A stretch of DNA of 37,096 nt from an uncultured Chromatiales bacterium (GTDB lineage: Bacteria > Pseudomonadota > Gammaproteobacteria > Steroidobacterales > BM003), in assembly GCA_937128475.1 (NCBI GenBank), contig CAKZML010000040.1:1-37096 (forward strand), in the 5' to 3' direction. The translations under genes were made by a program, and so were the position numbers. Of the stretch, positions 15,878 to 19,787 are shown piece by piece (within the stretch, counting starts at the first letter, position 1; each line of letters begins with the position of its first letter). A model generated the notes under the pieces. The model was not told where the DNA came from. It worked only from the letters and a program-made list of their open reading frames with translations, and did not search any database.

Positions 15878-17038
15878 TTAGCCCTGACGGCGAGACGCGG
15901 AAGCCGAAGCAGAGAGGATGACGCAGGCCCGCAGACGGTTTTTACCGAAACTGGCCATGCGCTCGAACTGCTTCTTCAGGACCGGCAGATTGGCATTATC
16001 GGTCGCGGTACGCATATGGGCCGGGTCCGCATCCGGGTCGTTGATGTAAACAAAGCGCTCATCCATGCCAACGATAACTACCCAGTGGGGAACCTTACTG
16101 CTGCTAAAGCGGTAGGTACTCACCAGGACCAGGGGAATCCCGCCTGCTTCCAGGGCTGCCTCCAGCTTCTTCATGCTTATCGGTTGGTAGTGCACATCGA
16201 TTCCCGACCCCTGGACCTGCTTGCGGAAGTCCTCGTGAACCACCCGCATGACGGCCTTCTTTTCCTCGCTGCGTACGCCATTGAGGAACAAGGGGCCCTT
16301 GTGACTGATATACGCCTGGACGGCAAACCCGCGCCGTTCAGCAGCCAATGCCAGTCCATGAGGGCCGCAGCCACCGTGACCTGACATCATGAATATGGTG
16401 GTGGATTCTCGCCACAGCTGAAGTTCCAGGGTTCTATCCATCGCGCGGCTCGGTTCCAGGCTGCGCATGGCCATCAACAGGCAGGAGGGACCACAGGTGA
16501 AGGGTGTGGTTTGGGAATAGTAGGGCACCTTCAAACTGGTGCCGCCGGGTGCCTCGAACAACACCCGCTTTTCATAGCGCAAGGCATCGGATTTGTCGTC
16601 GTAATACTGTTTATACAAACCGAAACGGAAATAACCCGCTTCTTCATACAGGGCAATCGCCCGGGCATTGTCAGGGTGCACTTCAAGACGCAAATAGACA
16701 CAATCATTGTCCACTGCCGCTGCCTCTGATCGGGTTAGCAATTCCCTGGCCAGGCCGGCGCCGCGAAAAGCCTTGTCCACGGCGATGGAGTACATCCGTG
16801 CCAGGGACGTGCCCTTGTGAAACAACAGCAGGGTATATCCAGCCAGTGCGCCATCAATTTCCACCACCATGAAAAATGCATGGGCCTTGCGAATCATCCA
16901 GGTGAAGTTGCGCCGGGTGAGTCGATCAGTGGCGAAAGACTTTTCTTCCAGCGCCACCAGGGCATCCAGGTCACGTATTGTGGCGGCTCGGTAAACCGGC
17001 TGTTTTTCCTGGGCTTTGGTTGTTACTTTTCGGGTCAC
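15878..17038 (-). CDS. GNAT acetyltransferase fused to C39-like cysteine peptidase
   Basis: The 386-residue product joins two enzymes. Residues about 13-160 form a RimI-like GNAT domain with the acetyl-CoA motif RGAGLA at 92-97 and the conserved HPDNARAIALYEEAGY. Residues about 170-375 form a C39/papain-like peptidase with Cys182 in TPFTCGPSCL, His318 in VPHWVVIVG and an Asp at 334 in YINDPD. GTG at 17038 is chosen because it overlaps the upstream gene's TGA and has GAGGA 6-7 nt before it; the frame continues to 17116 without a better start. It is the second gene of an operon with a metallopeptidase, opposite an RLAN-RimK ligase. It probably cleaves and acetylates a peptide or protein made or modified by that ligase. 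The substrate is unknown. Confidence 0.88.
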   Translation of the reverse strand: MTRKVTTKAQEKQPVYRAATIRDLDALVALEEKSFATDRLTRRNFTWMIRKAHAFFMVVEIDGALAGYTLLLFHKGTSLARMYSIAVDKAFRGAGLARELLTRSEAAAVDNDCVYLRLEVHPDNARAIALYEEAGYFRFGLYKQYYDDKSDALRYEKRVLFEAPGGTSLKVPYYSQTTPFTCGPSCLLMAMRSLEPSRAMDRTLELQLWRESTTIFMMSGHGGCGPHGLALAAERRGFAVQAYISHKGPLFLNGVRSEEKKAVMRVVHEDFRKQVQGSGIDVHYQPISMKKLEAALEAGGIPLVLVSTYRFSSSKVPHWVVIVGMDERFVYINDPDADPAHMRTATDNANLPVLKKQFERMASFGKNRLRACVILSASASASRRQG

Positions 17039-18159
17039 TTCAATTCCTCGGAAGACAATCCGTCCAGGGCCATCTGGATAACCTGGCGGGAACGGAATAT
17101 TACCGCTTCCTGCCAATCCGTGGTCGGTGGATTGAAATGCTTGAGCATGGACTGGCGCACTTGCTCCAGTTGGCCTGCATCAGCCGCCGACAAAGGCGCC
17201 TTGTGCAGAGCATGGTCGCGCCGGAGGGATTCCATCAATTCAATAAACGGGAAGGTTCCGAACTCCAGGGTCAGGAAGCAAACTTTATCACCAAAGGCTT
17301 GCTGCCAGGCGTAATCAATCAACCCCAGCTTGGGTACGGAGCTGGATGTTCCCAGAGCCGGTTCGGCAACGTTGGCGCCATACCATCGACGGGCCATCTG
17401 CACGCCCTCGCTATTCGGTGGGTGGTCGCAAATCAGTTCTCCATAACCGTATGGCCCCAGGCCGGTATGCAGGTCCAGCACGGCAATCCTCGAGCGCTGG
17501 GCCAGCCTGAGATCGACAAATAATTTTTCCAGTACCTGGCGTGACCAACTGGATTTCGCGCCCCCGTAAAACGGTCCTTCTGGATCGCTGAATTGACCGC
17601 CGCTGACAGCCTGGTGAAAGCGGGTGCTTCCCCAGTCCCGCTCATAGCGCGCAAGCCGGTCGCTAGCCTGGTCCCAGGCGGAAAGGTTTTCCGGGATCAG
17701 GGCCGTGCGCAGCTCCTCGTAATCCGGATTTGCCGGCGCAGGCGCTGAGAAATCCACGAAGTTGCGATTTAAATCCACCCCGTCCTCGTTGACCCGCCTG
17801 CAATTGAGGAACCCATGAGGGTTGACGGCGTGGATGTGCAAAACGGCCACGCCGGCAGGCAAATCCTGTTGATCCTGGTTCAGTAATTGATCCAGCTGAA
17901 TGGCTGAGCCGGCAAAGCCTTCCACCCCGTGAACCGCCGACTGGGTCACCAACACCCTGGGGGCCTCCGGGTCGCCTATCCAGGCATAGTCCAGGCTCAG
18001 CTGTTCACCGGCGGGGCCGGGAAGGGGATGGGCGATGGACTGCCGAAGGCAAGGTGTGCCAAGCCGGTCGGCGGCCAGGATAAATTGGTTCCTGGCTTGA
18101 AAGTAATCACTGGAAAACAGGCGGGCAAGCCCGTGGGCGTCTGGCAGCTGCAACTTCAT
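17035..18159 (-). CDS. M14-like zinc metallopeptidase, DUF2817 family
   Basis: Counted from ATG at 18159 the protein has 374 residues. Zinc ligands are visible as His77 and Glu80 (AVHGVEGF) and His231 (VLDLHTGLG). Arg132 in DGVDLNRNF matches the substrate-carboxylate arginine of M14 carboxypeptidases, and Glu299 in LTLEFGT is the likely catalytic glutamate. This is the DUF2817 branch of the M14 carboxypeptidase/succinylglutamate desuccinylase-like group. The frame extends to a TTG at 18201, but the ATG matches the start of conserved sequence better. It is the first gene of the operon with the GNAT-peptidase fusion and lies divergent from the RimK-type ligase. It probably removes an amino acid or acyl group from a modified peptide. 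No signal peptide is seen, so it should act in the cytoplasm. Confidence 0.83.
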   Translation of the reverse strand: MKLQLPDAHGLARLFSSDYFQARNQFILAADRLGTPCLRQSIAHPLPGPAGEQLSLDYAWIGDPEAPRVLVTQSAVHGVEGFAGSAIQLDQLLNQDQQDLPAGVAVLHIHAVNPHGFLNCRRVNEDGVDLNRNFVDFSAPAPANPDYEELRTALIPENLSAWDQASDRLARYERDWGSTRFHQAVSGGQFSDPEGPFYGGAKSSWSRQVLEKLFVDLRLAQRSRIAVLDLHTGLGPYGYGELICDHPPNSEGVQMARRWYGANVAEPALGTSSSVPKLGLIDYAWQQAFGDKVCFLTLEFGTFPFIELMESLRRDHALHKAPLSAADAGQLEQVRQSMLKHFNPPTTDWQEAVIFRSRQVIQMALDGLSSEELK

Positions 18160-18299
18160 GGCGGGTCGTGTCCTGGCCAGCTTCAGCAGCGGGCCTTCCA
18201 AATTGTAACGTTCTAGCCTAGATTCACGCGATCGATGTCCCGCGATGCGCCGGCTACCGATACAATTGCAATCTTGAAATTCTCAAAGGGATTTACCTG

Positions 18300-19787
18300 A
18301 TGCCCAAGCATCTCATAGTCATTGAAAACGCGAAAGACTGGAACCTGGAGGCTGAAGACGTCCAGGTTGTGGATTATCAAAGCTATTTGATGGCTCCCCA
18401 TTCGCCAACCGATCTCAGGGTGATCAACATGTGCCGGGGCTATCCCTACCTGGGCAGTGGTTACTACACCTCGTTGATGGCCGAGGCCAGGGGCCAGCGA
18501 GCCCTGCCTTCTGTGCGCACAATTAACGATCTTAGTCGTCGTGCTCTGTACAGCCTGGACCTGGGTGACTTGATGTCCCGCCTGAACAAGGTGGCAAGCA
18601 AGATGGAAGAGGTGCACGAGGAGGGCGCAAATGAACTGCGCTTCAAAGTCTTCTTCGGACGCTCACAGATCCCACAACTGGAGGAACTGGGCAGGCAGAT
18701 TTTCGAGGCCTTGCCTGCGCCCATTTTGTCGGTGCGTTTCAAAAAAGGTCTTCGCTGGAGACTGGAATCGGTCAGGGCTGTCGGCCCCCAGGACTTGAAA
18801 AAAGCGGAGAAGGAAGCCCTGGGCGAGGCCTTTGCTGACTTCACCAACAAGAGCTGGAAGCGGCCGAAGAACATGCCCAATGCTCGCTTTGACCTGGCTA
18901 TGCTGGTGAACCCGGACGAGAAGATGCCGCCTAGCAGCAAGGCGTCTTTGAATTTCTTTATCCAGGCTGGCCGACAACTGGGCATCTCGGTGGAGACTAT
19001 CGGTCCCCGTGATTTTGGGCGGATTGCCGAGTTCGACGCGCTGTTTATTCGCGAAACAACTAACGTGAATCACCATACCTACCGGTTCGCCAAGAAGGCC
19101 GAGTCGGAGGGCCTGGTGGTGATGGACGATCCGACCTCCATCCTGCGTTGTACCAACAAGATTTACCTGGCGGATCTGCTCAGTCGCAACAAGGTGCCCG
19201 CACCGCGTTACCGCTTGTTGACCGAGGATCAGGACCCGGTTCAGCAACTCGGTGACATGAGCTACCCGGTGGTGGTGAAGATTCCGGACGGGTCGTTCTC
19301 CCGAGGTATGTTCAAGGCGAAGAACGAAGCAGAGCTCAGGGAAAAATCTGTCGAGCTGTTTGAGTCTTCCACGGTGCTGCTGGCCCAGGAGTTTGTCTAC
19401 ACGGACTACGACTGGCGGGTAGGCATGCTGAACGGACAGCCGATTTACGCTGCCCGCTATTTTATGAGCAAGGGCCACTGGCAAATCTACAAGCACGGCA
19501 GCGGAGGCAAGGTGTCCTCGGGCAAGGCTGATACCTTCCTGGTAGAGGATGTGCCGAAGGAAGTGCTTGAGGTGGCCAGCAAGGCCGCGGGGCTGATTGG
19601 TAACGGCCTGTACGGCGTGGATCTCAAGCAGGTGGGCGACCGTGTGCTGGTCATCGAGGTCAACGATAACCCCAGCGTGGATCACGGCTACGAGGATGCG
19701 GCATTGGGCAAGGAGCTTTACCGGGTTATCATGGCCGAATTCTTGCGCCGGCTGGAACTGAGAGTACAAGGCGGAACACCGAAGTAA
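18300..19787 (+). CDS. RLAN-domain RimK-family ATP-grasp ligase
   Basis: The 495-residue protein has an N-terminal RLAN domain (about 1-155, with MCRGYPYLGSGYY near 44), a linker with a Rossmann-like segment (about 195-255), and a C-terminal ATP-grasp domain (about 280-485). Visible ATP-grasp parts are VVVKIPDGSFSRGM near 324, LLAQEFVYTDYDWRVGML near 360, and GVDLKQ leading to VIEVNDNPS, where Glu453 and Asn455 should bind magnesium. RimK-like enzymes join amino acids, often glutamate, to a protein or peptide carboxylate using ATP. The RLAN form is longer than E. coli RimK and its substrate is unknown. It is divergent from two peptidase genes, and an MFS gene follows on the same strand. An AAAGGGA precedes the ATG by 9 nt. 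Confidence 0.87.
   Translation: MPKHLIVIENAKDWNLEAEDVQVVDYQSYLMAPHSPTDLRVINMCRGYPYLGSGYYTSLMAEARGQRALPSVRTINDLSRRALYSLDLGDLMSRLNKVASKMEEVHEEGANELRFKVFFGRSQIPQLEELGRQIFEALPAPILSVRFKKGLRWRLESVRAVGPQDLKKAEKEALGEAFADFTNKSWKRPKNMPNARFDLAMLVNPDEKMPPSSKASLNFFIQAGRQLGISVETIGPRDFGRIAEFDALFIRETTNVNHHTYRFAKKAESEGLVVMDDPTSILRCTNKIYLADLLSRNKVPAPRYRLLTEDQDPVQQLGDMSYPVVVKIPDGSFSRGMFKAKNEAELREKSVELFESSTVLLAQEFVYTDYDWRVGMLNGQPIYAARYFMSKGHWQIYKHGSGGKVSSGKADTFLVEDVPKEVLEVASKAAGLIGNGLYGVDLKQVGDRVLVIEVNDNPSVDHGYEDAALGKELYRVIMAEFLRRLELRVQGGTPK

Follow-up and report, generated by a model that had tools for sequence, protein, structure and literature searches.

A DUF2817-bearing version of a predicted RLAN-RimK ligase, acetyltransferase and hydrolase module in an uncultured Chromatiales bacterium

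What might an amide ligase, a metallohydrolase and an acetyltransferase-peptidase fusion accomplish together when their genes share one locus? The question is posed by a stretch of 37,096 nucleotides from an uncultured Chromatiales bacterium (assembly GCA_937128475.1, contig CAKZML010000040.1, positions 1 to 37,096 of the forward strand; hereafter the window), in which the gene for an RLAN-RimK ATP-grasp ligase is divergent from a reverse-strand operon of two genes, the first coding for a DUF2817 metallohydrolase and the second for a GNAT acetyltransferase fused to a papain-like DUF3335 domain (GNAT-C39). An earlier reading of the bare letters (the original prediction) had proposed this layout as a joint three-gene system, and its open reading frames and Pfam domains are indeed as claimed. 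Our analysis strongly supports a joint ligase/acetyltransferase/hydrolase module, given the conserved linkage, the conserved catalytic residues and the occurrence of unrelated hydrolases in the same position; the window is a DUF2817-bearing version of this predicted, uncharacterised module. As to its function, we put at about even odds (roughly 0.5) the reading that the three genes together encode a single cytoplasmic make-and-break amide module, with intact active sites, that yields a small N-acylated peptide.

The linkage of RLAN with GNAT-C39 is far above chance. Among 143 genomes of the same class, sampled one per family, RLAN is found in 34 (and in 56 of 299 genomes sampled across the phylum), while strong matches to DUF3335 and DUF2817 occur in 23 and five, respectively. 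Every one of the 23 strong-DUF3335 genomes has RLAN (hypergeometric p about 1e-18 over the 143 genomes), and in 22 of them the two genes are adjacent. Three of the five DUF2817 genes adjoin RLAN in the same divergent layout as the window, a layout that a scan of named organisms also recovered in Methylophaga, Methylomonas, Candidatus Methylobacter, gamma proteobacterium HdN1 and others. In four loci from another class of the phylum, which we infer to be Alphaproteobacteria, DUF2817 adjoins GNAT-C39 and RLAN in different orders and strands (L152, L153, L161, L162). Hence, the co-occurrence that the original prediction hung upon extends well beyond this genome. Neighbouring genes without any joint role might be suggested by the patchiness of DUF2817, by one congener of the window genome that lacks RLAN and by one genome (G060) with RLAN and GNAT-C39 on separate contigs; this explanation is nevertheless rendered extremely improbable by the complete co-occurrence and near-complete adjacency, by the lineage-to-lineage variation of gene orders and strands, and by the clustering of the hydrolase genes near RLAN described below.

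The catalytic residues named in the original prediction are intact, with a numbering that fits the starts adopted here. The ligase matches PF14401 (E 3.6e-41, 140.8 bits against a cut-off of 25; 144 bits in the genome search) and PF08443 (E 1.3e-10, 41.6 bits, cut-off 21). Its D441, E453, N455 and R373 are invariant across 30 homologues, its metal and ATP residues are kept when it is aligned to RimK and LysX, and the RLAN domain has invariant Y55, Y56, S58, L59, A63 and R64 in a 22-row alignment. An AlphaFold2 model of the ligase (pLDDT 86) has RimK and LysX/ArgX as its nearest folds over residues 197-487 (Z 26-28). With RimK, the ribosomal protein S6 L-glutamate ligase, it shares this ATP-grasp fold (Z 26.4-28.2) and the metal-binding D, E and N; unlike RimK, it has the extra RLAN domain and a different substrate motif, and it scores below the RimK family cut-offs (TIGR00768, 77.4 vs 143.4 bits; PRK10446, 22.6 vs 331 bits). 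With LysX/ArgX it has in common the fold and a similar HW motif region, but no gene for a LysW-like carrier was seen among the recurrent RLAN neighbours. For the RLAN domain itself no convincing sequence match was found in the PDB, and the structural matches were taken up by the ATP-grasp part.

The DUF2817 protein (PF10994, E 6e-102, 342 bits; AstE_AspA_cat, E 8e-6) has the zinc-binding and catalytic residues H77, E80, H231 and E299 invariant in 13 homologues (H91, E94, H245 and E313 if counted from an upstream TTG). Its closest solved sequence is the carboxypeptidase REP34 (4oko, 1e-4), followed by MpaA (0.06). It resembles the AspA/AstE deacylases and the M14 peptidases typified by these two in its zinc-coordinating H-x2-E ... 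H pattern, its catalytic E and weak sequence matches, but differs from both in constituting a Pfam family of its own. In the GNAT-C39 fusion (PF00583, E 3e-17; Peptidase_C39_2, E 9e-9; PF11814, E 7e-91 to 1.7e-91, 303.8 bits against a cut-off of 25), C182, H318, D334 and the oxyanion residue Q176 are invariant in 26 homologues. The GNAT domain in its AlphaFold2 model (pLDDT 90) is nearest to the N-terminal acetyltransferases Ard1 and RimI (Z 22-23), which are also its nearest sequence relatives; it differs from them in being fused to a papain-like domain and in falling below the RimI equivalog cut-off (TIGR01575, 73.9 vs 86.4 bits). The C39 domain had no convincing PDB sequence match, the structural matches being taken up by the GNAT domain.

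The exchange of parts across loci bears on the chemistry. The 143 loci examined come for the most part from Gammaproteobacteria and Alphaproteobacteria, together with single Pontiellaceae, Bacteriovoracaceae and Bacteroidetes records. A GNAT gene lies next to RLAN in 125 of these: 84 with a GNAT-C39 fusion, 40 with GNAT alone and one with a GNAT-nitrilase fusion; a stand-alone C39 is present in nine. Among the 34 class loci, GNAT-C39 is accompanied by M20 in eight, M14 in three, DUF2817 in three and no hydrolase in eight; the stand-alone C39 comes with FGase in seven, as a rule with GCS2 too, and without FGase in two; the remainder comprise one locus with GNAT alone and two with neither GNAT nor C39. 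Exactly one of M20, M14, DUF2817 and FGase is present in 21 of these 34 loci, and DUF2817 is one of four mutually replacing metallohydrolases beside RLAN. Of the genes for these hydrolases, 36 lie no more than 2 kb from RLAN and not one is found between 2 and 10 kb, with the inner zone making up only 29% of the examined sequence, though the loci are non-independent and the profiles derive from members of the same set, such that the exact figure should not be over-read; the M20 profile was built from five genuine members, and the M20 of L041 rests on that profile. A tree built from 83 RLAN proteins requires no fewer than 14 changes of hydrolase type (27.6 on average in shuffles, with a minimum of 24) and 11 of partner type (shuffle mean 21.6). 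These are fewer changes than in the shuffles, yet still 14 and 11, indicating that hydrolase and partner types are inherited but repeatedly exchanged.

In a second version of the locus, C39-RLAN-GCS2-FGase, a GCS2 and a stand-alone C39 replace the GNAT-C39. Two families of the window's own order carry it (L191, L192), and together with the congener lacking RLAN this makes the presence of the RLAN locus patchy. Some lineages keep only GNAT and RLAN (Dyella, Rhodanobacter, several of the other class and one Pontiellaceae record); the RLAN ligase and the GNAT are therefore the usual core, and the cutting enzymes are optional. Accordingly, the module of the original prediction stands as a joint ligase/acetyltransferase/hydrolase system, whereas its restriction to three particular genes is right only in part: DUF2817 is interchangeable and often absent, C39 is missing in several lineages and the GCS2 version lacks the fusion altogether. 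Some loci show further permutations: a fusion of GNAT with a nitrilase-type C-N hydrolase occupies the usual GNAT-C39 place beside RLAN in one (L077:1925-3514), a similar fusion adjoins a stand-alone C39 in another (L057:10842-12398), and one genome (G194; L165, L166) carries RLAN twice, once with GNAT-C39 and once with GNAT alone.

Taking these parts together, we propose that the RLAN-RimK enzyme, judging by its fold and conserved residues, would couple an amino acid to a small acceptor at the expense of ATP. The RimI/Ard1-type GNAT might acetylate the free amine on either the product or a precursor, and the papain-like DUF3335 and the DUF2817 zinc hydrolase could cleave the product, such that an N-acyl peptide is edited or recycled. 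The product would most likely be a small N-acylated di- or tripeptide rather than a protein tag. The families of the hydrolase slot include deacylases of small N-acyl amino acids, namely AspA/AstE, ArgE/ACY1 and N-formylglutamate deformylase, which favours such a product, as does the exchange of GNAT with GCS2 (the gamma-glutamyl ligase family), both being possible amine caps. Several observations weigh against this proposal. Both the GNAT and the ligase have as their nearest folds enzymes that act on the ends of proteins (RimI and Ard1 for the GNAT, RimK and ArgX-LysW for the ligase). The substrate motif of RimK and LysX (RSNLHRGG / ITNTARGG) is replaced by HWQIYKH in the RLAN enzymes; it is not conserved, and glutamate cannot be assumed to be the amino acid used. 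DUF2817 is found away from RLAN in many genomes, and we regard it as a wider family, one part of which serves the RLAN system. Finally, a hydrolase is present in none of 14 dereplicated GNAT-only rows as against 29 of 60 with C39, but once relatedness is allowed for, the link stands at three to zero informative pairs (p 0.25), which is not significant; that C39 and the metallohydrolase may act together is a hint only.

The kinship of the synthetic enzymes to modifiers of protein ends keeps reversible tagging as the leading alternative: the ligase would add amino acids to a protein terminus, the GNAT would cap the N-terminus and the hydrolases would remove the tag. RimK acts on S6, ArgX/LysX on the carrier LysW, and RimI caps an N-terminus; the structural proximity of the ligase to RimK and to LysX/ArgX bound to LysW, and that of the GNAT to RimI and Ard1, fit such a role, as do the M14 enzymes of the hydrolase slot, which resemble tubulin deglutamylases in family. 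A recurrent DUF155/RMND1 neighbour also speaks for it, this family being tied to mitochondrial translation. However, no gene for a carrier or substrate protein is conserved near the RLAN loci, small-molecule deacylases are numerous among the hydrolase families seen, and the window genome carries a separate canonical RimK, which argues that the RLAN-RimK ligase has another job; we therefore consider protein-end tagging possible and less probable than a small N-acylated peptide. The DUF155 gene immediately adjoins RLAN or GNAT-C39 in four gammaproteobacterial lineages (L040:10577-11371, L062:17301-17777, L078:3713-4537 and L177:10141-10926) and in one family of the other class (L152:9279-10070, L161:1890-2714). 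Of 31 genomes with DUF155 in the phylum sample, 19 carry RLAN as well (p 2e-8, but with one family dominating), and a search of the window genome found no DUF155. In one further genome DUF2817 adjoins DUF155 at a site without RLAN, which is encoded elsewhere in that genome (G147:C1:246878-248664).

A further candidate is a pathway of known type, leading to an osmolyte like N-acetylglutaminylglutamine amide (NAGGN) or a thiol like glutathione. The NAGGN synthase unites a GNAT with an ATP-grasp peptide ligase, its gene (Ngs) is somewhat enriched in RLAN genomes (4/34 vs 2/109, p 0.03), and the second version of the locus, with GCS2 and ATP-grasp, recalls GshA and GshB. Yet NAGGN synthase is a single fused protein of another family that coexists with the RLAN system in four genomes; the locus proteins do not match its model TIGR03103 (19.7 bits for GNAT-C39, where the cut-off is 569), and no Ngs above cut-off occurs in the window genome. 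Likewise, an ordinary GshB (TIGR01380) is encoded in the window genome and in seven of nine second-version genomes. Tested with these two models, neither the glutathione nor the NAGGN hypothesis was supported, and we deem such a pathway unlikely. The two GCS2-version genomes without GshB above cut-off are those of L046 (G028) and L045 (G120). A very unlikely reading is a cluster for a peptide antibiotic or bacteriocin in which C39 would cleave off the leader: a C39-like peptidase domain is indeed adjacent to a peptide ligase, but it is fused to GNAT and not, as in the leader peptidases of bacteriocin exporters, to an ABC transporter; no precursor peptide (including the double-glycine type), ABC exporter or immunity gene is conserved near RLAN loci; and the genes are spread over many families in two classes, which is not the pattern of a sporadic antibiotic cluster. 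The remark in the original prediction that no ribosomally made substrate peptide lies nearby also held up: searches of 83 dereplicated loci for a conserved gene encoding a small peptide yielded nothing but antisense shadows and a cold-shock gene. The P. aeruginosa operon PA1766-PA1768, considered as a possible relative with phenotypes, was set aside for its content, having a membrane protein (PA1767), an exported one (PA1768) and no GNAT-C39; it is probably a different ATP-grasp operon.

Within the window (Table 1), the stop of the DUF2817 gene and the GTG start of GNAT-C39 overlap in GTGA. In a congeneric genome (L190) all three genes recur with the same flanking neighbours, and the GNAT-C39 there shares the GTG start and the length of 386 aa. 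That genome also keeps the ATG at 18159, the most likely start of DUF2817, although the open reading frame itself opens upstream at TTG 18201. Comparison of the two congeneric genomes gives dN/dS values of 0.037 for the ligase, 0.152 for DUF2817 and 0.102 for GNAT-C39; purifying selection thus acts on all three genes. Promoter and terminator scans returned chance-level hits only. Elsewhere in the window, downstream of a tRNA-Cys, lie at 13564-15545 genes for NrfH (TIGR03153, above cut-off) and a downstream multihaem cytochrome resembling NrfA, a cytochrome c nitrite reductase pair.

Table 1. Genes and domains of the RLAN locus in the window
Feature	Coordinates	Strand	Basis
RLAN-RimK ATP-grasp amide ligase, 495 aa	18300..19787	+	PF14401 + PF08443
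RLAN domain of ligase	18378..18827	+	PF14401
RimK-like ATP-grasp catalytic domain of ligase	19155..19685	+	PF08443, residues 286-462
DUF2817 metallohydrolase (M14/AspA-like), 374 aa from ATG 18159	17035..18159	-	PF10994
GNAT-DUF3335/C39 fusion, 386 aa, GTG start 17038	15878..17038	-	Pfam domains, start overlap, active-site residues
GNAT acetyltransferase domain, RimI/Ard1-type	16631..16924	-	PF00583
DUF3335 papain-like (C39-like) hydrolase domain, Q176/C182/H318/D334	15914..16528	-	PF11814

The idea of an RLAN/GNAT-papain system predates this window. Iyer, Abhiman, Burroughs and Aravind reportedly predicted the association in 2009, with a role in peptide ligation or acetylation, and their study and the Pfam RLAN entry are said to list GNAT-papain, M20 and GCS2 neighbours. 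DUF3335 has also been described as often fused to GNAT domains in possible peptide ligases or acetylases, with citation of Iyer et al. 2009 (PMC10318531). As far as these sources can be compared, the window has the same ligase family (PF14401) and the same adjacent GNAT-DUF3335 fusion as the neighbourhoods of that type, a combination shared by 22 of the 34 class loci. The present analysis brings in DUF2817 as a partner, the exchange among four hydrolases, the GNAT-only core and the neighbouring DUF155 gene; of these, DUF2817 as one option in the hydrolase slot and the recurrent DUF155/RMND1 neighbour look new. In the literature that could be searched, there was no experimental study of RLAN, DUF3335 or DUF2817 proteins, nor any biochemical data on a peptide-ligase or tagging activity.

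No product or phenotype was found for the RLAN system, although it is frequent in the sampled genomes. That four hydrolase families replace one another in a single position restricts the possible chemistry, and mutants with a dead hydrolase should accumulate the product. Tentatively, one may envisage a widespread pathway for the synthesis and recycling of an N-acyl peptide or a matching protein tag, built on a core of RLAN and an acetyltransferase, with an exchangeable zinc hydrolase (here DUF2817) and, in certain lineages, a membrane protein of the DUF155/RMND1 family connecting it to a cell process, possibly translation. Should the product be a small N-acyl peptide, a widespread bacterial metabolite still awaits discovery; if it is instead a protein tag, the system would be a bacterial counterpart of the tubulin-type modification cycles.

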